Shown: in pieces, positions 2,007-15,155 of the stretch
How the letters are laid out: each line of letters begins with the position of its first letter
How positions within the stretch are numbered: the stretch's first letter is position 1
Source: a virus
Reading direction: 5' to 3' (one strand)
IMG/VR virus record: IMGVR_UViG_3300047354_001141
Span: 1-31,262 of that record
Length of the DNA: 31,262 nt
Translations under genes and position numbers: made by a program
The notes under the pieces: model-generated
Database searches by the model: none
What the model saw: only the letters and a program-made list of their open reading frames with translations
What the model was told of the DNA's origin: nothing

Positions 2007-2291
2007 ATGCCCGCGGTAACAAGAATTGGTGATGCTGATATAACCCACTGTTCGGGCATGGTAAGAGCGGCAGGTTCGCCAAATGTCTTCTGTAATGGTA
2101 TTCCCATATCAAGATTAGGTGATCCAAATACTGGTCACCTGTTGCCTGGTTCACCATGTCCCGGTCATGTCGTCCCCATTGTATCAGGGTCTAGTACTGT
2201 AAAAATTAACGGAATTGATTGTGGAAGAATCGGAGACCCGACCTGTACGGCTGTGGCCGCGGGCTCTCCTAATGTATTTGCAGGAGGTTAA
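2007..2291 (+). CDS. PAAR-repeat spike-tip protein (T4 gp5.4-like)
   Basis: This 94-residue protein has the PAAR pattern throughout: repeated turns such as TRIGDADITHCSG, AAGSPNVFCNGIPISRLGD and KINGIDCGRIGDP, with conserved cysteines and histidines suited to binding one metal ion at the cone apex. PAAR proteins cap the beta-helical central spike of contractile tails and type VI secretion systems. T4 gp5.4 is of similar length and caps gp5. This marks the phage as a myovirus. It sits directly after a small membrane protein gene and 3 nt before another one with a strong AGGAGG ribosome binding site. Family assignment is confident; the exact spike partner is outside the window. Confidence 0.92.
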   Translation: MPAVTRIGDADITHCSGMVRAAGSPNVFCNGIPISRLGDPNTGHLLPGSPCPGHVVPIVSGSSTVKINGIDCGRIGDPTCTAVAAGSPNVFAGG

Positions 2292-2467: not shown

Positions 2468-3619
2468 TTAGAATTTTAATCTATATCCAACAAACACTTT
2501 ATTCTTAAATACATCAGCATCTTTATTTAATAGATGCAAGCCTTGATAACCAAGCTCGGCATAGTGATTCTCATTGTATTTCCAAGCAAACGTGATGCTC
2601 GAAACAAAGACTTCCTCTTCTCTCTCTAATCCAATGTTGTAACGATTACCAATATCTTTATAAGATGTAAGAAGATGAGCACCCATAGCACTGACTTCAA
2701 GTTTTGGTGTGATTGGATATTTAATCATAAGAGATGTTTTCAAATTCTCTTTCATATTCCAATATGCTACAGACGAATCCATTACTTCATAAGTTGTGTT
2801 GAATCCAATCACTGTACCTTTTTCAGTAAAGTAAGTTATGTTGGCACCATAAGTCGGCACTGAGTATTCAGTAAGTGTACCATACTGGTCTTCGATCAAT
2901 GCATCGATAATACCATAGTTGAATTTTATAATAGTTGAAGGATTCATGACATACGAGAACTGAGCATAATACGTATCAGTATCAATCGCTCCACGAGTTC
3001 CACTATAATCTAAGAATGACTTTTTACCAACAAGTTCTAATATGAATCGTTTACCAAGAATTTGTTCTGCTGCAAATGAATATGTATCTTTGGTAAAGTC
3101 ACCATTAGTTAATTCGTTGCCACTACCTACAGGTAAGTTTTCAGACCAACGCTTGACATAGCTTTCGTAGCCACCTTTAAGTTTTAAGAGATATCGAGGT
3201 TGCCACGTTAGCAAGTACGTACTCTTATTCATAAAGTATGTTACATCAAGATCATCATCAATATCACTTGGCTCTCTTTCAGAATGAGAGAATGTATTTG
3301 TAGAATCAAGTGTAAGCTTTGGTCCAAATTCGTATTTGCTTTTAATGCCAATGTTACCAAACACCAATGTCTTACTGTCAACAGCCCTATGTCTTATTTC
3401 TGGTTGTGCCTTTAGATTTATTAAATCCCTAAAGAACTTACCATCGATTCCTAGTGATTGGCTATAGTAAAAGGTTGATGTTTGGCCGGACGAACCAGCC
3501 GCCCGCATAAAAACATTGTCATCAAAAAAGATTCGACTAAACGAAGTGAATTTAAGACCTCCTAAGCCATACGCTATAGATGTTACCACTAACAATAATG
3601 TACATAACAAAAATCTCAT
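2468..3619 (-). CDS. phage-encoded outer-membrane beta-barrel protein
   Basis: The 383-residue protein starts with a classical Sec signal (RFLLCTLLLVV, cleavage likely after SIAYG near residue 19). The rest is a run of alternating amphipathic strands rich in Y, F, T and N, ending in VFVGYRLKF. A terminal phenylalanine is the hallmark of outer-membrane barrels recognised by the BAM complex. Related barrel proteins occur beside exosortase/PEP-CTERM loci in bacteria, for example EpsL-like proteins; that similarity is by architecture only and not tested. It begins 3 nt after the PEP-CTERM gene, so the two are co-translated. Possible roles are receptor masking, export of the neighbour's product, or envelope modification during infection. 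Confidence 0.85.
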   Translation of the reverse strand: MRFLLCTLLLVVTSIAYGLGGLKFTSFSRIFFDDNVFMRAAGSSGQTSTFYYSQSLGIDGKFFRDLINLKAQPEIRHRAVDSKTLVFGNIGIKSKYEFGPKLTLDSTNTFSHSEREPSDIDDDLDVTYFMNKSTYLLTWQPRYLLKLKGGYESYVKRWSENLPVGSGNELTNGDFTKDTYSFAAEQILGKRFILELVGKKSFLDYSGTRGAIDTDTYYAQFSYVMNPSTIIKFNYGIIDALIEDQYGTLTEYSVPTYGANITYFTEKGTVIGFNTTYEVMDSSVAYWNMKENLKTSLMIKYPITPKLEVSAMGAHLLTSYKDIGNRYNIGLEREEEVFVSSITFAWKYNENHYAELGYQGLHLLNKDADVFKNKVFVGYRLKF

Positions 3620-3622
3620 AAT

Positions 3623-4270
3623 TTAATCTGTTCTGCGTTTCGTTGCTATGTATAAAAATGCAAGGATACCTACAAGTAAAGCATAGGTTGATGATTCAGG
3701 CACTGTACTAAAATATAGATCGCTTGGTCCATTAATCTCAATATCCATTGAGCCAAGTGCATTGGCTTGAAAAGAAGTAAATACTACTAGATATTCTTTT
3801 TCCTCTAAGTCGAATAGACCGTCAAATGCACCTTCGCCTGTACCAGTTCCTTGTCCACTATTAAGACTCTGACCTCCACCAAATCCAACCGTTGATGATG
3901 AGTTAAAGATTTCTGGCATACTAGTTATAACGTTGGCTAAATCAAAAGTGTCACTATCATACAACAATACTTGTGTATCGACTGTCGAACCATCTGATCC
4001 TTGCAATGAGCTTGAGTAATTAGAGAAACTAAAATCATCACCTGCACTATCAGGAGTCATATATATGTACTCGTAATATGTACGGTCTGTAGTATTTTCT
4101 GGTCCACCCGATGAGCCACTAAACCCTTCGATATATTGGTCATTTTCTAAGACAACATCTAGGTCATAATAAGAATAGTCAGCGTTTGCACCAGTGAGTG
4201 GTCCTAGTATGCTAATACTAGCGAATGCCGGAGCGGCCATTAATAAAAATAGTATTAACCATTTATACAT
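3623..4270 (-). CDS. PEP-CTERM sorting-domain protein
   Basis: Residues 1-17 form a Sec signal ending in AFA. The middle is serine-, glycine- and aspartate-rich and beta-prone, typical of exported surface proteins. The C-terminus has the full tripartite sorting signal: VPESSTYAL (residues 190-198), a hydrophobic helix to about residue 209, then KRR at 211-213. In bacteria such tails are recognised and cleaved by exosortases, membrane transpeptidase-like proteins found with exopolysaccharide loci. No exosortase is visible here, so a host enzyme would be needed. The gene lies between small membrane protein genes and the outer-membrane barrel gene in one leftward cassette. Confidence 0.88.
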   Translation of the reverse strand: MYKWLILFLLMAAPAFASISILGPLTGANADYSYYDLDVVLENDQYIEGFSGSSGGPENTTDRTYYEYIYMTPDSAGDDFSFSNYSSSLQGSDGSTVDTQVLLYDSDTFDLANVITSMPEIFNSSSTVGFGGGQSLNSGQGTGTGEGAFDGLFDLEEKEYLVVFTSFQANALGSMDIEINGPSDLYFSTVPESSTYALLVGILAFLYIATKRRTD

Positions 4271-4274
4271 AATA

Positions 4275-4409
4275 CTACTCTCCTGCTACTACTGCTTCGC
4301 CACCGATAACTCCAAGCATATTAAGTACGATGAGTACGACTACAAGACCTACTACTGTTTTCTTTTTATTGGCTTTTACCCAATTGATTACTGTTGCGAT
4401 GTATTCCAT
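4275..4409 (-). CDS. small membrane protein (44 aa)
   Basis: The frame starts at ATG 4409, immediately after the stop of the gene upstream, and ends 4 nt before the PEP-CTERM gene start. An N-terminal amphipathic segment with three lysines (KANKKKT) is followed by one hydrophobic helix (about residues 19-37) and the tail GGEAVVAGE. The positive-inside pattern predicts a cytoplasmic N-terminus. The spacing on both sides supports coding. Function unknown. Confidence 0.65.
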   Translation of the reverse strand: MEYIATVINWVKANKKKTVVGLVVVLIVLNMLGVIGGEAVVAGE

Positions 4410-4410
4410 T

Positions 4411-4587
4411 TTATTTTTTTCCTATTAATTTACCCATTAATCCAAAGATTTGTCCAAAGAGACCTAAACCTTTTCCAAGGAATGAATCTTTCGGTATGAG
4501 CATTGTTAGCATTGATAAGATACCAATCGTTGCAATTGCTATCTCGATTAAATTTCCTTTACATTGTTGAAATATATATTGTATCAT
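4411..4587 (-). CDS. small membrane protein with glycine-rich tail (58 aa)
   Basis: I placed the start at ATG 4587, which overlaps the upstream TGA in an ATGA junction; a longer in-frame version would add an arginine-rich stretch inside the upstream gene. One transmembrane helix spans about residues 15-34. The C-terminal tail, FLGKGLGLFGQIFGLMGKL, is an amphipathic glycine/leucine/phenylalanine helix of the kind seen in membrane-active peptides. It may be a membrane-perturbing component of the cassette. This is inference; the family is not recognised. Confidence 0.65.
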   Translation of the reverse strand: MIQYIFQQCKGNLIEIAIATIGILSMLTMLIPKDSFLGKGLGLFGQIFGLMGKLIGKK

Positions 4588-4805
4588 TCTTCGTCTCCTC
4601 CATTGCAGTGACATTTGCTACGTGACATATATCCTGCCACAATACCAATGATGCCAGTGACTGACATCTTTAACAAATTAATTACTCCTTCATCGACAGG
4701 CTTATGCTCTTTAATAGAAACATAGAAGTCTCCTATAGTAATAACAAACAACAAAGTTACTAATCCTATTACTAGTGTAAATACTATTTTATCTTTTGTA
4801 TTCAT
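4584..4805 (-). CDS. two-span membrane protein (73 aa)
   Basis: The start chosen is ATG 4805, two nucleotides past the upstream stop codon, giving an N-terminus MNTKDK. Two hydrophobic helices lie at about residues 7-29 and 44-62, separated by a charged loop. The C-terminus has a Cys-His-Cys cluster (SKCHCNGG). Size and topology resemble two-helix phage holins, but no specific family is recognised. It overlaps the next gene by an ATGA junction. Confidence 0.65.
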   Translation of the reverse strand: MNTKDKIVFTLVIGLVTLLFVITIGDFYVSIKEHKPVDEGVINLLKMSVTGIIGIVAGYMSRSKCHCNGGDEE

Positions 4806-4806
4806 A

Positions 4807-6258
4807 TTAATTAGAAGCGTATAGTTGATTAGAAGGAGAAACAATTATTGTGCCTTCGTCGGGTGTAATCACTTGTTCGATCACATCGTCGATCGCTGTT
4901 ATTTCAATGCCTGGATCGATTAAAATATCATCAACTATTACCTCAGCATTAGTTACCATATCAGAAATATCTATTTCTACTGCCTCTACTTCAATCTCTG
5001 TTACCATTGCGTGAGGTTTAATGTCATCTATTCCATCAATAGATATGTCTTCTACTTCGACCTCAGTGTCAGTAGAAATGGGTGGGGTCTCCGTTTCTGA
5101 TTCGACTTCTGCAATCTCAATCACAGGTTCCTCATCAGCAGATATATCACCTTGTTTAACCACCTCCTCTTCATTAGTATTAATACCAAATAACGAAAGG
5201 AGACCACCACCACCAGATTTCTTTACACCATTCGATTCTGCAGTATCGGCGTTTGCTTCAGGGTTTCCTGCCTGTTTGCCTCCGTCAACTTCTGTCTCAG
5301 ACGTTTCCGTCTTAGACTCTTCAGTAGACTCTTCTTCTGTTTGCTCATCTGGTACTGTGTCGCCATCTTGTGTTGGTTCTCCTTCTTCAGAATCAGGTTC
5401 TTCATTATCATCTCCTCCGCCGGTGAGGAAACTGAAGAAACCTTTTTTCTTCTTGGGTTTTTCTTCAACCTGCTCCTCGGCTTCGGGCTCAGGTTCGTTA
5501 GATTCTTCTTCAGATTCTTTATTTTCTGATTCAGGCTCTGATTCTTCTTCAGGCTCTTCAGCCTTTTCTTCTTCATCGCCTCCTAAAAGTTTTGAGAAGA
5601 AACCTTTTTTCTTTTTCTTAGGCTCTTCTTTTTCTTCCTCTACATCTTCCTCATTCGAATCCTCATCCTTTGTATTAGATTCAGTAGAGGTCTTAGTGGA
5701 TTCTTTAGAATTTTCTGTCTCTGGAGTTTCTTCTCCATCCGGTTCTGTTCCCTTAGATATTGTTGTAGTCTCATTTGTTCCCTTTGATTCTGGTTGAGTA
5801 GGTGGGTCTAAATCAATTTCTATATCACCCATGCCAAGAATTGTAGTGAAACCTGCAAGAGGATCATCCCAATTAATGTTAGGGTGTTCAAGTTTAACTT
5901 CTTCCCATTTTTCTTCAGCAACTTGTTGAACTATTCGTGTTTCTTCAACCACTGTATCAACTTGAAAATATGCTGCAGAACCTAGAGCTATAAGACCAGC
6001 AGGGCCGAGTGTAGCAGCCTGATTCCCAAGTTGTTCTAAGAAGCCTGGTGGCTTCGTTAAATCTTCTGAGACAGTGGATTCACCTTCTTCATCATCTTCA
6101 AACTCAAATCCAGGCTGGATTTCATTTAACAGAGATGATGATGCTTTTTTAAGAAGTTCATGTTCCTCATTTGGTCTATCCGGCTTAGACAACCTCTTGA
6201 CCACGTTGATTGCCTCTTCAAGGTCTAACTCTTCTATAGGTTTTTTCTTTTTAGCCAT
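4807..6258 (-). CDS. acidic modular membrane-associated protein with repeated KKKKGFFS motifs
   Basis: The 483-residue protein starts with a lysine patch (AKKKKP) and a short helical region. It has one hydrophobic glycine/alanine-rich segment at about 81-99, then more than 250 residues dominated by Glu, Asp, Ser and Thr. Embedded in the acidic part are three spaced modules: KKKKKGFFSKLLGG (214-227), KKKKGFFSFLTGG (269-281) and KKSGGGGLLSLFG (346-358). Each is a basic patch followed by a short aromatic or hydrophobic helix. The C-terminal 100 residues alternate acidic and isoleucine/valine residues. It heads the surface cassette and has a TATAAATA box 13 nt upstream. Function unknown; membrane tethering through the repeated modules is plausible. 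Confidence 0.75.
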   Translation of the reverse strand: MAKKKKPIEELDLEEAINVVKRLSKPDRPNEEHELLKKASSSLLNEIQPGFEFEDDEEGESTVSEDLTKPPGFLEQLGNQAATLGPAGLIALGSAAYFQVDTVVEETRIVQQVAEEKWEEVKLEHPNINWDDPLAGFTTILGMGDIEIDLDPPTQPESKGTNETTTISKGTEPDGEETPETENSKESTKTSTESNTKDEDSNEEDVEEEKEEPKKKKKGFFSKLLGGDEEEKAEEPEEESEPESENKESEEESNEPEPEAEEQVEEKPKKKKGFFSFLTGGGDDNEEPDSEEGEPTQDGDTVPDEQTEEESTEESKTETSETEVDGGKQAGNPEANADTAESNGVKKSGGGGLLSLFGINTNEEEVVKQGDISADEEPVIEIAEVESETETPPISTDTEVEVEDISIDGIDDIKPHAMVTEIEVEAVEIDISDMVTNAEVIVDDILIDPGIEITAIDDVIEQVITPDEGTIIVSPSNQLYASN

Positions 6259-6271
6259 AACTAACTAACTT

Positions 6272-6279
6272 TATTTATA
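6272..6279 (-). promoter_or_regulatory. late promoter box TATAAATA for the surface cassette
   Basis: An exact TATAAATA on the minus strand, 13 nt before the start of the acidic protein gene. With the rightward box at 6327-6334 it forms a divergent late promoter pair, implying that the leftward surface cassette and the rightward fibre block are expressed together. Confidence 0.65.
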
Positions 6280-6326: not shown

Positions 6327-6334
6327 TATAAATA
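6327..6334 (+). promoter_or_regulatory. late promoter box TATAAATA for the rightward fibre block
   Basis: An exact TATAAATA ending 5 nt before the ATG at 6340. No Shine-Dalgarno sequence fits in the gap, so if this box is used in the normal way the mRNA would start at or next to the start codon. Confidence 0.65.
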
Positions 6335-6339
6335 GAAAT

Positions 6340-6825
6340 ATGTTTGGATTAATAACAATGTTACTCACAACACTCGGTGCCACGGGAATGGGATCACTTT
6401 TAAAAATGGTTGGTGGATTTGCTGCAAGTATTGCAGATGCACGAACTGCCGCCGCTAAACGCGAACTTGCAAGAGATTTAGCATTATCAAAAGCAAGTAT
6501 TGAAACTCAAAATGCTATATTCGGAGAAGCCAATGAAGAAACATCAATGTTTACCCGTGCTACTCGTCGGATCATTGCTCTTATCGGGATGTTCAACTTT
6601 TTCATCATTTCCGTTCTTTGCACCATCTGGCCAGGCGTCGAACTTATTACCTTTACCCCACCAGAAAATAAAGAGGCCGTTAGAATCCTCTGGGGACTTG
6701 TCACCTTTCCCAGTGGAGCTGATATTACCACATCAATCACAACAGGGCACATCGCTCTGGTCTCAATCGCCACTCTGGGAGCAATAATTGGATTTTACTT
6801 CACACCTTCAGCCGGAGGCAAGTAA
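6340..6825 (+). CDS. holin-like three-helix membrane protein (161 aa)
   Basis: Hydrophobic segments lie at about residues 2-30 (partly amphipathic), 78-100 and 130-155. Between the first two is an Ala/Arg-rich soluble helix (ARTAAAKRELARDLALSKAS). The order (amphipathic N-terminus, charged helix, TRRIIALIGMFNF and two further spans) resembles the 3-TM holin family seen in gene transfer agents and marine phages. It heads a run of small membrane proteins leading to the fibre gene. The holin role is inferred from topology; the family link is from memory of the pattern and unconfirmed. Confidence 0.7.
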   Translation: MFGLITMLLTTLGATGMGSLLKMVGGFAASIADARTAAAKRELARDLALSKASIETQNAIFGEANEETSMFTRATRRIIALIGMFNFFIISVLCTIWPGVELITFTPPENKEAVRILWGLVTFPSGADITTSITTGHIALVSIATLGAIIGFYFTPSAGGK

Positions 6826-8105: not shown

Positions 8106-11100
8106 ATGAGTTTGACAAAATTTAACACTAGAATAGGTAATAATCTTCTTGAAGTAGTTTCTTCTTTAGAAGAATTAAAATCATTAAAACATTTTAATCA
8201 CGCCGTTTTAGTTCTCGGCGCTACCACTACACAAGATGGTGATGGAGGTATATATTCTTGGGATGGTTCTAACGAACAGACCCCTGATGATATCTCTTTG
8301 ATTCAATCGGATCATAATACAATCGGCAGATGGAAAAGATTATCTTATGCATTGAATGCCGCAGAGGATGCTCCTCTCAGTTTTTCTGGTGAAACTTCTA
8401 GAACAGTAGCTTTCGTACAGGGAAATTATTCTTTCAGTATGGCTTCCAGATTCACTATTACAGCAACTTCTAATGTAAGTTGGTTGACAATTGGAAGCAT
8501 TAGTAAAAACAATCTTAGTCAAACCATAAATTATGAAGTCATTGGTAATCCAAATAACTCTGTAAGAGAAGGGGTAATCACAGTCACTAATGGTTTCCAA
8601 ACATTTACGTATGTAGTTACACAAGGTGAAGTAGAGAGTGTAACAGTAAGTTCATCACTAGTATTTAATAATGAAGCTAGAGATAATAATATTACCAATG
8701 TAGTATCAAATGCAAGTTGGACAGCAACAAGTTCTGTATCTTGGATATCATTATCTTCTTCTAGCGGAACTGGAAATGGTTCTATACAGTTTGATTTAGA
8801 AGAAAATACTGATCAGCAAAATGATCGTAGTGGAAACATTACTGTTACGACTGCCTCAGGTTATAGTCAAGTGATAAGTGTGACTCAGAGCCAAGGTGCT
8901 TCGGAAATTGAGTCTGTCGATGAGCAAGTCATTGATTCTGATGCAGCAACAGGTCTATCTTTCGAGATTGATTCTGATATTGGTTGGACAGCAACAACTA
9001 GTACTAGTTGGATAACACTCACAACTTCTTCGGGCAATGATGGTGATGATGTTGTTTATTCTGTGACAGAAAATACTGACATTGTTAATGATAGAACAGG
9101 AACAATCATAGTCTCAAGTACTAATGGACAAAATGTGGTCACTGTAGATATTAGACAGACCGAAGTAGCCGATGCCTTTCAAGTCAAGATCGATACGACA
9201 AATACTACATTGAATAATTTTGCTGTCGAACGCGCAAGAAATATTAGTGTCGATTGGGGAGATGGATCAACTAAAGAATCGACACCAGATAATATTTCAT
9301 TTAATAGACTCACTCATACTTATGCAACAGACGGAGTATACACTGTGTCCATAACACAAAATGATAAAAATGTTGTTGCTCAAAAATTCTCAACAGTTGG
9401 ATTTCCATACTACAGTGAACATCATAGTTATGCCCTTGATACTGCCTTGACTAATGATGCGAGTAATGTTGGCGGTGCTGACATATACAGTATGGAAACT
9501 TCCCAAGGAAGTTGTGATTTTAGTTTCAACTTTCCTTCTGGTGTGGGGGGTTCGCAAACTTCTAATGAAGATGGCATCTCGATAAATTCCGATCAACATC
9601 CAGTTAAAATGATAGAAGAGATAGTCGAGTGGGGTAACATGACAATTGATTCACTTGATAAATTCCTCTCTTATGCTTCGAATTTAACAACGATATCCAC
9701 CGAGCTAACAAACTTTGATATGTCCAATGTGAAGTCATTGTCGAACTCATTTCTTTCCTGCACTGGTCTTACATCATTCCCTACCCATGCCAATGGCTTT
9801 GATACATCTGGTGTATACGGATTGTATCAAACATGGTATAACTGCTCTGGTCTTACATCATTCCCATTGATTGATACATCAAATGTTGAAATTTTCGATA
9901 GAACATGGAGAAGCTGCACTGGTCTTACATCATTCCCATTGATTAATACTGAAATGGGTTTAGGTTTTGCCTACGCATGGGGAGGCTGCTCTGGTCTTAC
10001 ATCATTCCCATCGATTAATACATCAAAGGCCTTAAATTTGTATCAAACATGGTCTGACTGCTCTGGTCTTACATCATTCCCCACTCCCGATGCAGCTACG
10101 GGAGCACTAGATACATCCAAAGTATATAATATGTTTGCAACATGGAATCGCTGCTCTGGTCTTACATCATTTCCTGCAATTGATTTGACGACAATGAATG
10201 ATACATCTACAGTCCATCCTACAGTGGCTGAAGAAATGACGTATCCAGCACTTAGCATCGATTCCGTTAATAGGGGCACCATATCTTTATCCAATAATAC
10301 TTTGAGTTCAACATGGTCTGACTGCTCTGGTCTTACATCATTCCCATTGATTGATACAAGCGGCATAACAGCTATGGATCGAACATGGAATGACTGCTCT
10401 GGTCTTACATCATTCCCATCGATTGATACAAGCTCTGTAACATCGATGACTGGTTGTTGGCAAAACTGCCGCCAGCTTACATCATTCCCATCGATTGATA
10501 CATCAAATGTCGAAAGTCTAGATTCAACATGGGAAGACTGCCGCCAGCTTACATCATTCCCATCGATTGATACATCAAATGTCGAAAGTCTAGATTCAAC
10601 ATGGAAAGACTGCTCTGATCTTACGTCATTCCCTGCAATTGATGTTGTCAAATGTGAAAACTTCAATGAAACATGGAGAAACTGTACTGGTTTTACAGCT
10701 GCGAGTAACTTTGGTAAATTTACTAATACAAGTTATACTACTGCAGGAGAGACATATAGAGGAATAGCCGTTTCGGGATCATCTTGGTATAAAACATGGG
10801 AAGGTTGTACTATGGCTTTCACTAGTAAAGTAAATTCACCCTTTGATAATTTGACCGCTGGCACGACCATCAAAGTTCGTCTTAGAAGACCAACGTATGT
10901 CATTAGCTCAACCTCCGCTGTTGCACGTCAATTTATTGAGGCACAGAGTTTTGATACTCCACTTCCAACTGGTAGCATTTACTATCCTCCGTTTGATATA
11001 AGTGCTCTTACTTCGGTAACGATTAATGATTCAAGCACCACTATCTCTACCTCCAATGGTTCATTTGAATTAACTGGATGGGATCAGATGACATTTCCTC

Positions 11101-12956
11101 TAGTTGATGCCCATTTTGGCTTGGGCAGTACATATACTTATGGAGATGCCACGCGCCCTAGTCTATTAACTGAAATTAATCTAAATATTGGTCTACCATC
11201 ATCTGACATTACGACTATTCTCTCTGAAATTTATACTGGCTCTGTTCAGGGCATTCATACTCCTATTACAGGCACAAGTTCATATACATGGAATTCATTG
11301 ACAGCAATTCAAAGTACTGGCGCGTCAACTACCTACGTGGCGCATCTCCTTGATAAAGGCTGGGACATTACAAGTAATGGTACTCTTCAATTGGGTAGTG
11401 CAATCCAACTTGGCGCTCGGATTGTAGAGCCCATGTATAATGTTAGCCATTATCGGCCGATGTGGTACATGAACTATGGCACCGATACTACATTAAATAG
11501 TAATGGAACTAGATTGGCAATTTCCGCGACTGAAGATGAGGCACTGAACCAGATCCCGATATCGCAAGCTGACTCAAACATCCGCGGATACATAGAAATT
11601 CATGATTGGGATGCCAACAATAATGCTTGGAATAAAATTGATACAATTAATATGACCGACCTTGTCGAAAATAATGCTTATTCCGGCTCTGGAGGCTCGG
11701 TCCATCGGATGGGTCAAAGTATCGAATTCGATGAATCAGGAAACAGGATTGTGATCGGCACGCCAGGATTTGTTGGATCAAGCACCGCCACCGATGGATC
11801 GGAAAATGCTGGAGGTCGTGTTGATGTTTTTGAATATGATCCAGACTCTCCAAGTAAGGGCTATGTACAACTTGGAGGTGTTATTTATGGCGAAACTCTT
11901 GGTGACGATTTCGGTTCATCAGTGAGTATCAGTAATGATGGAACAATAATTGCAGCAAGCGCGCCACTAGCTGATGGTGATGAATCTGGAACTGAACCCA
12001 GTCGCGGTGAAATCCGAGTCTTTGAATTAGATACTTCAGGAGCAACCCCAATATGGACTAAACTAGGAAATACCATACTTGGCGAAGAATCTGGTGCTTT
12101 TGGCGGAGGAGGTTTAATCTACAGCAGCGACGTGCCGGGGGTCACTACGAATCCCACTGATACCTATAACGATTATGAGTTCATAGGCGATGCAATTAAA
12201 CTAAGTGGAAATGGACATCGAATAGTAATTGGCTCGCCATTGTCAAGCAATAATGGTCAAAGTACAAGTACAGGCGCGGCAGAAATTTATACCTATGATT
12301 CTACACAGAATCCTGCATGGTCTAAGCTCGGAGATACTTTAAGAGGACATGTCGCTGGAGCAAATTTTGGAACTGCCGTCAGCATGAATGATGCAGGAGA
12401 TCGAGTCATAGTTGGTAGTCCCTTTTTAAATAATCCCACGTATGGAAGTTCAGTAGACGCACGCGTATCGATTTTTGAATATGTTGTAAGTGAATACGTC
12501 CAAGCATGGCGCCAAGTAGGCTCGGTTATTAAAGACTTAAATTCTGGGCCCAGTGGGACTGAAGCACTATGGTTTGGTGCACAAGTCAGTATGAGCGCTG
12601 ATGGTGATCGCATTGCAATTGGGTCACCCGGCTCATACGATGGGAGTAAGCCGTATAGAGGAACTGTACAAGTTAGGGAGTTGGATAAATCAACATATAC
12701 TGGTCTGGCTCCTTACAATTCCTCGACTTCGACGGGGATATCAGGAGACTTCAACCTAATTTCAGAACCTATATCTGATATTCTTCATACTAGTAATACG
12801 ACCCAATATTACTACGAATGGTTTGGAACTGATGTAGTAATTTCATCTGATGGTTCCAAAATAATTGCTTCGAATTCGAACGCCAATGGCTATATGGGCA
12901 GCGTCCATAACAACGTTTATGCATTTCAAACCTATGCAAGTGTATTTCAACTATAG
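8106..12956 (+). CDS. giant modular tail fibre / adhesin (1616 aa)
   Basis: Domains in order: residues 1-85, a phage fibre/spike N-terminus (VLVLGATTTQDGDGGIYSWD, then GRWKR), as used to join baseplates; about 88-353, three BACON-like beta-sandwiches with the SWxxxSxxSG pattern and Q-S/T-E ends; about 355-420, a PKD-like domain (VDWGDGST, then HTYATDGVYTVSI); about 498-870, 24-residue repeats with LTSFP-x-ID-T, resembling BspA/DUF285 leucine-rich repeats; about 870-1110, an unassigned beta-rich part; about 1115-1616, repeated GDRIVIGSP / FGxxVSxSxDG units resembling an FG-GAP beta-propeller. BACON, BspA and FG-GAP domains commonly bind glycans or host surfaces. This is the likely receptor-binding protein. 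Two late-type boxes precede it. Confidence 0.9.
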   Translation: MSLTKFNTRIGNNLLEVVSSLEELKSLKHFNHAVLVLGATTTQDGDGGIYSWDGSNEQTPDDISLIQSDHNTIGRWKRLSYALNAAEDAPLSFSGETSRTVAFVQGNYSFSMASRFTITATSNVSWLTIGSISKNNLSQTINYEVIGNPNNSVREGVITVTNGFQTFTYVVTQGEVESVTVSSSLVFNNEARDNNITNVVSNASWTATSSVSWISLSSSSGTGNGSIQFDLEENTDQQNDRSGNITVTTASGYSQVISVTQSQGASEIESVDEQVIDSDAATGLSFEIDSDIGWTATTSTSWITLTTSSGNDGDDVVYSVTENTDIVNDRTGTIIVSSTNGQNVVTVDIRQTEVADAFQVKIDTTNTTLNNFAVERARNISVDWGDGSTKESTPDNISFNRLTHTYATDGVYTVSITQNDKNVVAQKFSTVGFPYYSEHHSYALDTALTNDASNVGGADIYSMETSQGSCDFSFNFPSGVGGSQTSNEDGISINSDQHPVKMIEEIVEWGNMTIDSLDKFLSYASNLTTISTELTNFDMSNVKSLSNSFLSCTGLTSFPTHANGFDTSGVYGLYQTWYNCSGLTSFPLIDTSNVEIFDRTWRSCTGLTSFPLINTEMGLGFAYAWGGCSGLTSFPSINTSKALNLYQTWSDCSGLTSFPTPDAATGALDTSKVYNMFATWNRCSGLTSFPAIDLTTMNDTSTVHPTVAEEMTYPALSIDSVNRGTISLSNNTLSSTWSDCSGLTSFPLIDTSGITAMDRTWNDCSGLTSFPSIDTSSVTSMTGCWQNCRQLTSFPSIDTSNVESLDSTWEDCRQLTSFPSIDTSNVESLDSTWKDCSDLTSFPAIDVVKCENFNETWRNCTGFTAASNFGKFTNTSYTTAGETYRGIAVSGSSWYKTWEGCTMAFTSKVNSPFDNLTAGTTIKVRLRRPTYVISSTSAVARQFIEAQSFDTPLPTGSIYYPPFDISALTSVTINDSSTTISTSNGSFELTGWDQMTFPLVDAHFGLGSTYTYGDATRPSLLTEINLNIGLPSSDITTILSEIYTGSVQGIHTPITGTSSYTWNSLTAIQSTGASTTYVAHLLDKGWDITSNGTLQLGSAIQLGARIVEPMYNVSHYRPMWYMNYGTDTTLNSNGTRLAISATEDEALNQIPISQADSNIRGYIEIHDWDANNNAWNKIDTINMTDLVENNAYSGSGGSVHRMGQSIEFDESGNRIVIGTPGFVGSSTATDGSENAGGRVDVFEYDPDSPSKGYVQLGGVIYGETLGDDFGSSVSISNDGTIIAASAPLADGDESGTEPSRGEIRVFELDTSGATPIWTKLGNTILGEESGAFGGGGLIYSSDVPGVTTNPTDTYNDYEFIGDAIKLSGNGHRIVIGSPLSSNNGQSTSTGAAEIYTYDSTQNPAWSKLGDTLRGHVAGANFGTAVSMNDAGDRVIVGSPFLNNPTYGSSVDARVSIFEYVVSEYVQAWRQVGSVIKDLNSGPSGTEALWFGAQVSMSADGDRIAIGSPGSYDGSKPYRGTVQVRELDKSTYTGLAPYNSSTSTGISGDFNLISEPISDILHTSNTTQYYYEWFGTDVVISSDGSKIIASNSNANGYMGSVHNNVYAFQTYASVFQL
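9752..10690 (+). repeat. BspA/DUF285-type coding repeats in the fibre gene
   Basis: Eleven LTSFP units are encoded, each preceded by TWxxC or a variant and mostly spaced by about 24 codons, with a longer insertion between units 6 and 7 (about 10165-10310). The DNA repeats CTGGTCTTACATCATTCCC almost unchanged in most units, so slippage or recombination could change repeat number. Confidence 0.85.
10466..10609 (+). repeat. near-identical 72-bp tandem duplication within the fibre repeats
   Basis: The unit CTGCCGCCAGCTTACATCAT begins at 10466 and again at 10538, a 72-nt (24-codon) period. The following 60 or so bases are identical between the copies. These two units use a CRQ variant where the others have CSG or CTG, so the duplication is recent. 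Confidence 0.88.
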
Positions 12957-14187: not shown

Positions 14188-15033
14188 TCAGAGGACATTA
14201 ATATATTCTTCTAAATTATGTGATGATTTCCAGCCGAGTTCTTTTGTTTTATCTGTTACGACATCCCCTGTCATTCTATTGCCTTTTCTTTCAGGCAACA
14301 TTTCAACATCGCCGTTTAACATCTTTGCAATGTCTAGAACAGAATAAGATTGATCTGATCCAATTCCGTAGCCGTCACCCTCGCCATTTTCTCCGATCAA
14401 TACAAGAGCATCAATGACATCATCAATGTATGTGAAATTCCTCTTTTGTGTGCCAGGTGATACAACTGTCAATTTCTCGCCTTTCTGTATCTTATCTTTG
14501 AATAGAGCAATAAGGGTCGCATACTTTCCTTCTTTGATTTCTCTACCTCCATAGACATTATAGAAATATGTTATGGCATATGGCATATCATACCACTTGC
14601 CGTAATTCATTACTAGTTCAGTATTCTTAGCCTTACTAAAAGCATAAGGAGATGCATCTGCGCCGTTATCACTGAACTTTGTGCTACTACCAGAATAGAC
14701 AAGCTTGGCTCCGATCTCTCTTACATATTCAAGGACTTCAATGGTTCCCTTTGTATTGTATTCGTGGACAAGTCGAACATCATCAAAGCTCTGTTCGACA
14801 CGAGAATATTCACCTAGATGATATACGATATCGGGCAATGGATGAATGGGTGCATAATGAATGTCGCACGTTGGAGCCTTGATATATTTGACTCCATCGA
14901 CATGATTATCAGTTGAGCCAGTAAAATAATTATCTAGACTTGTGACATTATGTCCATCTTTATGTAATCTCTCACAAAGATGGCTACCGATAAATCCGGC
15001 ACCGCCTGTAACCAATATGTTTTTATCTTTCAT
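14188..15033 (-). CDS. NAD-dependent sugar epimerase/dehydratase (extended SDR)
   Basis: The start at ATG 15033 overlaps the upstream TGA (ATGA) and gives 281 residues, slightly short for the family. The Rossmann motif is VTGGAGFIGSH (residues 8-18). The catalytic YxxxK appears as PYAFSK, with an upstream serine stretch (YSGSST). A C-terminal substrate domain has the NFTYIDDV pattern typical of UDP-glucose 4-epimerase-like enzymes. It probably interconverts nucleotide sugars in the cytoplasm, supplying the glycosyltransferases encoded further downstream. The exact substrate cannot be read from sequence. Confidence 0.9.
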   Translation of the reverse strand: MKDKNILVTGGAGFIGSHLCERLHKDGHNVTSLDNYFTGSTDNHVDGVKYIKAPTCDIHYAPIHPLPDIVYHLGEYSRVEQSFDDVRLVHEYNTKGTIEVLEYVREIGAKLVYSGSSTKFSDNGADASPYAFSKAKNTELVMNYGKWYDMPYAITYFYNVYGGREIKEGKYATLIALFKDKIQKGEKLTVVSPGTQKRNFTYIDDVIDALVLIGENGEGDGYGIGSDQSYSVLDIAKMLNGDVEMLPERKGNRMTGDVVTDKTKELGWKSSHNLEEYINVL

Positions 15034-15155
15034 AGAAAATTTAACCATATACATAGACAGATAAAGAATCCTATCGAAAATATACCAATGATTACCTTGT
15101 CTTTCAATTGTAGTTTGTGTTTGTATTTATTTTGATTATTTAATGACTTTTTCAT
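15030..15155 (-). CDS. small membrane protein (41 aa)
   Basis: Frame from ATG 15155 to TGA at 15030-15032, overlapping the epimerase start. The N-terminal half is lysine- and asparagine-rich, followed by one transmembrane helix (about residues 21-39, with two cysteines). Positive-inside topology predicts a cytoplasmic N-terminus. It could anchor the epimerase to the membrane given the coupled genes, but this is speculative. Confidence 0.6.
   Translation of the reverse strand: MKKSLNNQNKYKHKLQLKDKVIIGIFSIGFFICLCIWLNFL

Follow-up and report, generated by a model that had tools for sequence, protein, structure and literature searches.

Why should a bacterial virus encode a protein with a bacterial surface-sorting tail, next to a gene for a probable outer-membrane barrel? 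This question is raised by the window analyzed here, by which we mean the whole stretch of 31,262 nucleotides at positions 1 to 31,262 of the IMG/VR virus record IMGVR_UViG_3300047354_001141. In bacteria, PEP-CTERM proteins and exosortase go together with an outer membrane (Haft et al. 2006, PMC1569441), and exosortase/PEP-CTERM sorting has so far been studied as a cellular process, tied to exopolysaccharide and flocs. The results presented below suggest that uncultured bacterial viruses (marine phages) place a swappable protein on the cell surface, late and by means of a host enzyme.

The original prediction assigned a Sec signal and a tripartite sorting tail to the gene at 3623..4270 on the minus strand, and both are found there. 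The product of 215 aa comprises a signal peptide (residues 1-17), a predicted beta-sandwich (about 19-188) and the tail (190-215). Its N-terminus reads MYKWLILFLLMAAPAFA followed by SIS, and MYKWLILFLLMAAPAFA, a putative Sec signal peptide called from the sequence together with a predicted helix, is kept in homologues. The C-terminus, VPESSTYALLVGILAFLYIATKRRTD, displays the parts of a PEP-CTERM sorting tail, namely the VPESS motif with its conserved P-E, a hydrophobic helix and the basic cluster KRR, encoded at 3626..3703 (-). A six-frame genome-mode profile search with TIGR02595, for which the cut-off is 16 bits, matched positions 3632-3703 with 18.8 bits (E 1.5e-4), and the same mode of search matched none of 14 control genomes. 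With hmmscan the whole window protein scored 14.8 bits, just under the cut-off, and the predicted match to the PEP-CTERM model therefore holds in one mode of search and falls short in the other. Taken alone, the tail in the window is borderline, because PES replaces PEP. Among 16 aligned homologues the P-E dyad is nevertheless invariant (16/16), although the bodies fall to 26-29% identity and the helix is variable too. TIGR02595 is matched by 10 of the 16 family members (best E 3.7e-4); of 10 viral relatives, 8 score above its cut-off, and homologues reach 21.1 and 18.5 bits. An AlphaFold2 model of the window protein (pLDDT 71, pTM 0.69) starts with a signal helix, continues as a beta-sandwich and closes with a helix at 195-214. 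A fold search with this model returned one viral protein (E 1.5e-8), and the modeled sandwich weakly resembles the calcium-binding sandwich, cleaved-adhesin, Flo adhesin and binding-module folds. Searches of solved structures gave no meaningful match for either this protein or the barrel.

The barrel gene (2468..3619, minus strand) lies downstream of the PEP-CTERM gene, separated from it by the 3-nt gap at 3620-3622. It encodes 383 aa with a signal peptide and a C-terminal Phe (the protein ends in GYRLKF), and its product is probably a BBP2_2-like outer-membrane beta-barrel, on evidence that is cumulative, not conclusive. PF10082 (BBP2_2) is weakly matched by 10 of 14 barrel members (best E 0.0016), but the window barrel scores 14.1 bits, short of the 23.7 gathering threshold. 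Structure prediction from 14 close homologues places ten consecutive strands, mostly of 11-17 residues, between residues 191 and 381, at a pLDDT of about 30, and this low-confidence model was kept out of the fold search. The beta-alternation of the window barrel exceeds that of most shuffled sequences (12 of 500 shuffles reach its value), and it is weak or absent in divergent members.

In scans of IMG/VR, barrel homologues at 78-99% identity were found on 22 contigs, and searches started from other PEP-CTERM bodies reached further contigs, whose barrels are at 49% and 29% identity. In all 29 loci that have sequence upstream of the barrel (about 21 of them non-redundant, with three loci that end inside the barrel left out), the gene adjoining the barrel upstream ends in a [VI]PE tail. 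Tail and gene order hold down to 29% barrel identity and to PEP-CTERM bodies of about 25%; both the tail and the gene content are conserved. The 29/29 count, the invariant P-E and the 10/16 matches to TIGR02595 together show that the tail in the window is not a product of chance. Two PEP-CTERM genes of the same type, L106:1995-2633 and L107:52-483, stand without a barrel, either next to them or anywhere else on the record, and the pairing is therefore not absolute. No homologue was matched among named phages.

The two genes had been proposed as a unit. The pair is present, but the real unit is an operon of four to six genes: an acidic membrane protein comes first, then one or two small membrane proteins, after these the PEP-CTERM proteins, again one or two, and the barrel is last. 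In the window the operon runs from 6258 to 2468, collinear with its relatives. The first gene (4807..6258, minus strand, as are all that follow) encodes an acidic protein of 483 aa with an N-terminal hydrophobic segment and a long E/D-rich region containing repeated K-rich G-F-F amphipathic motifs; it gave no family match, and across loci its length varies from 435 to 650 aa with one hydrophobic segment. It is followed by a membrane protein of 73-86 aa (4584..4844), which is an insertion in the window phage, and by a conserved small membrane protein (4411..4614; 67 aa, or 58 aa from the conserved start) with a hydrophobic helix and an amphipathic C-terminus. A 44-aa one-helix membrane protein (4275..4409), present in some relatives, precedes the PEP-CTERM gene. 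Tandem pairs of PEP-CTERM genes are found in L009, L012, L013 and L057. A homologue of the inserted protein (73% identity) is encoded elsewhere in the unrelated phage G1, where genes for small membrane proteins cluster close to that for the terminase.

Inspection of the region just upstream of the operon revealed a match to the T4 late consensus, TATAAATA, at 6272..6279 (-). An identical octamer stands upstream of the operon in L023, and CTAAATA occupies a similar position in L007, L012 and L057. In the window, TATAAATA occurs 9 times against 4.2 expected. For the T4-like members, a late promoter before the operon may thus be regarded as partly shown. A second copy at 6327-6334 (+), in the opposite orientation, lies 5 nt ahead of the ATG at 6340, and the start of that plus-strand gene may therefore be misplaced. 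In the second lineage, GTGTAAAATA is conserved upstream of the operon; it is not claimed as a class of late promoter because it is not enriched elsewhere in those genomes.

The window itself is T4-like, judging from its replication genes and late promoters, the capsid and terminase genes lying outside it. It encodes a T4 RNase H C-terminal domain (PF09293), and its flap endonuclease is nearest to that of Melnitz phages; the best matches are to Melnitz, C48C1 and cyanophages. In L057, likewise, the gp44-type clamp loader is 56-60% identical to those of C48C1, HTVC008M and Melnitz. The original prediction was thus correct in calling the window T4-like, but the operon is not confined to such phages and is also present in unrelated large phages with a DnaE polymerase. 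One of these, G1 (141.7 kb, L040-L047), is a large tailed phage with a DnaE-type polymerase, no close named relative and a terminase less than 27% identical to that of any named phage; G2 and G4 carry operons of the G1 type. The operon is conserved across these two phage lineages. Between the window and G1 the barrels are about 81% identical and the bodies 78-85%, whereas the acidic and small proteins are just 32-40% identical. Since the lineages are unrelated and the barrels and bodies close, the module must have moved between unrelated phages, and the passage of ectodomains between such lineages suggests that these have hosts in common.

Three neighboring genes may be mentioned. A PAAR-motif spike protein (2007-2291, plus strand; phrog_281, PF05488) is encoded next to the operon, not only in the window but in several relatives as well. 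The plus-strand gene at 8106-12956 encodes a probable adhesion or fiber protein of 1616 aa, with BACON domains, DUF285 repeats and an FG-GAP match. An NAD-dependent epimerase, possibly related to surface sugars, is encoded at 14188-15054 (-) and also lies close to the operon in G1, G2 and L006.

Comparison of bodies with barrels showed that the two do not share a single history. L015 and L019 have barrels that are 96% identical and bodies that are 25% identical; for the window and L008 these values are 93% and 36%. In L004 and L008, the barrels are 83% and the bodies 89% identical, and between L003 and L016 dS is 1.82 for the barrel, 0.20 for the body and saturated for the tail. The PEP-CTERM bodies behave as cassettes that pass among tails and barrels whose ancestry differs: body identity is decoupled from barrel identity, and the ectodomain is therefore swapped between conserved flanks. 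Bodies and barrels alike are under purifying selection, with omega about 0.05-0.3, and within one body type omega is about 0.07-0.3. Swapping of the ectodomain is what a recognition domain would be expected to show.

Exosortase genes are absent from all 23 viral records, and processing would therefore depend on the host, as had been proposed. The further proposal, that the exosortase narrows the host, has fared less well. Among cellular genomes the operon occurs only in a Porticoccaceae MAG, in which the contig concerned, L057 (PCCK01000047.1), is a phage; its presence in a species-genome collection probably reflects virus contamination or an infecting phage. Among 392 genomes of the order to which the MAG belongs, no homologue was found except on this contig. 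An exosortase is encoded by the MAG (E 3.4e-40), within an EPS locus that also includes PrsK, PrsR and an adjoining barrel; the enzyme is nearest to XrtC, of the VPDSG type, scoring 271 bits where the cut-off is 300. Apart from the phage contig, the MAG yielded no PEP-CTERM tails, and TIGR03778 (VPDSG) substrates gave sub-threshold matches only. Across the family, exosortase is present in 36 of 112 genomes and PEP-CTERM proteins in 23 of 112. The readable tails there are of the VPEP type, most with a GLGLAGLG-like helix, unlike the FLYVAI-type helix of the phage tails. Because the enzyme comes closest to XrtC, no tails turned up elsewhere in the MAG and most of those of the family differ, L057 may be a binning error, and a host within Porticoccaceae is weakly indicated.

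We propose the following scheme. The genes would form a late-expressed phage envelope operon. Sec would export the PEP-CTERM protein, whose tail would keep it in the inner membrane. The host exosortase would then cut at the PE motif, a step that we consider highly probable. The cut would release the beta-sandwich ectodomain or re-anchor it towards the outer membrane or the surface, with the barrel as its dedicated outer-membrane partner, whether anchor or exit route, and with the small membrane proteins helping assembly; a surface location is likely. Once displayed, the ectodomain would alter adsorption to the infected cell and to debris, and phages would reshuffle it to suit host strains or rival phages. 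The most likely means is receptor masking, through which progeny and competitors would escape capture. This control of adsorption is the more tentative part of the scheme, with a somewhat less than even chance of being right. Late expression would suit progeny protection better than classic superinfection exclusion. As a whole, the reading of the locus as a late surface module, processed by host exosortase and controlling adsorption through receptor masking and the protection of progeny, stands in our estimation evenly balanced between right and wrong.

The exchangeable ectodomain would also be explained if the module served adhesion or aggregation. Infected cells would then be sticky and draw in uninfected neighbors, or membrane contact would be promoted, and in dilute water the progeny would be likelier to meet a host, in the manner of PEP-CTERM floc proteins or TraAB. 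The weak matches of the modeled sandwich to the cleaved adhesin domain, Flo adhesins and binding modules are consistent with this, and in the passage of PMC12642866 that reports on Gao 2018, PEP-CTERM proteins are required for floc formation. TraAB offers a parallel in which a variable, tail-tagged surface protein adjoins or overlaps its outer-membrane partner (PMC3325183, PMC11980579), but the likeness to TraA/TraB is one of gene arrangement, no sequence relation having been seen, and we regard an adhesive role as unlikely. That the operon is a lysis accessory, with holin-like small membrane proteins and a PEP-CTERM/barrel pair acting late at the outer membrane in the manner of spanins, appears improbable. 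The late-type promoter, the amphipathic C-termini of the small proteins and the G1 homologue of the 4584-4844 product near a terminase gene are in keeping with such a role; however, lysis proteins need neither an exosortase tag nor an exchangeable ectodomain nor a barrel, and exchange of the ectodomain points to recognition.

It is quite improbable that the barrel works as an exporter like those of EPS loci and that the PEP-CTERM protein enters the matrix, changing the host exopolysaccharide. The phage barrels and L060, the barrel of the MAG's EPS locus, show weak matches to one and the same C-terminal portion of BBP2_2 (PF10082), and the epimerase gene lies close by in G1, G2 and L006, but the phage members are below the cut-off, direct profile comparison with L060 is weak (probability 28%) and the operon has no polymerase, glycosyltransferase or export protein. 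Cassette exchange and late expression, taken together, favor surface recognition or masking over both lysis and a change in exopolysaccharide. A plain C-terminal membrane anchor that resembles PEP-CTERM by accident and has no exosortase role would accommodate the PES of the window tail and its borderline hmmscan score, but is very improbable given that P-E persists while helix and bodies vary and that homologues exceed the TIGR02595 cut-off.

Stated more broadly than in the receptor-masking scheme, the locus would supply a viral substrate for exosortase within a late, two-part surface recognition system, in which a tagged, exchangeable ectodomain and a dedicated outer-membrane partner are traded between unrelated phages and reprogram binding by the infected cell, through receptor masking or neighbor capture; we hold to this formulation tentatively, as somewhat short of an even chance. 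If true, it would be, as far as we have found, the first clear case of a virus using a C-terminal sorting pathway of Gram-negative cells, and it predicts that the hosts of these uncultured phages bear exosortases. The exchangeable ectodomains provide a natural set with which to ask what a phage gains at the cell surface.

With the PEP-CTERM/EpsH substrates of bacteria the phage protein has in common a signal peptide, a variable body without recognizable homology, [VI]PE(P), a hydrophobic helix and a basic end; unlike them, it is viral, is encoded without an exosortase and has a fixed place beside a barrel in an operon. In hot-spring viral contigs, TIGR03118 proteins, with a C-terminus that is a putative exosortase interaction domain, are among the horizontally acquired proteins (PMC11003980). 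Another close system is TraA/TraB of Myxococcus, where a tail-tagged protein with a variable surface domain is encoded beside an outer-membrane partner (PMC3325183, PMC11980579). An arrangement of this type is found in 29/29 phage loci; TraA/TraB, however, are cellular genes with their own MYXO-CTERM/myxosortase, in which the tail has an invariant Cys, and an OmpA-type domain in TraB, whereas the phage module has a PEP-type tail with no conserved Cys and, in Pfam scans, no OmpA domain. Phage proteins that alter adsorption from within the host outer membrane include T5 Llp and the products of lambdoid porin genes, which are lipoproteins or porins and have neither an exosortase tag nor an exchangeable exported ectodomain. 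The open-access literature, when searched, yielded no account of a PEP-CTERM or exosortase system encoded by a phage. Within that literature, as far as could be searched, the parts of the module are of known kinds, and their combination and viral use are new.
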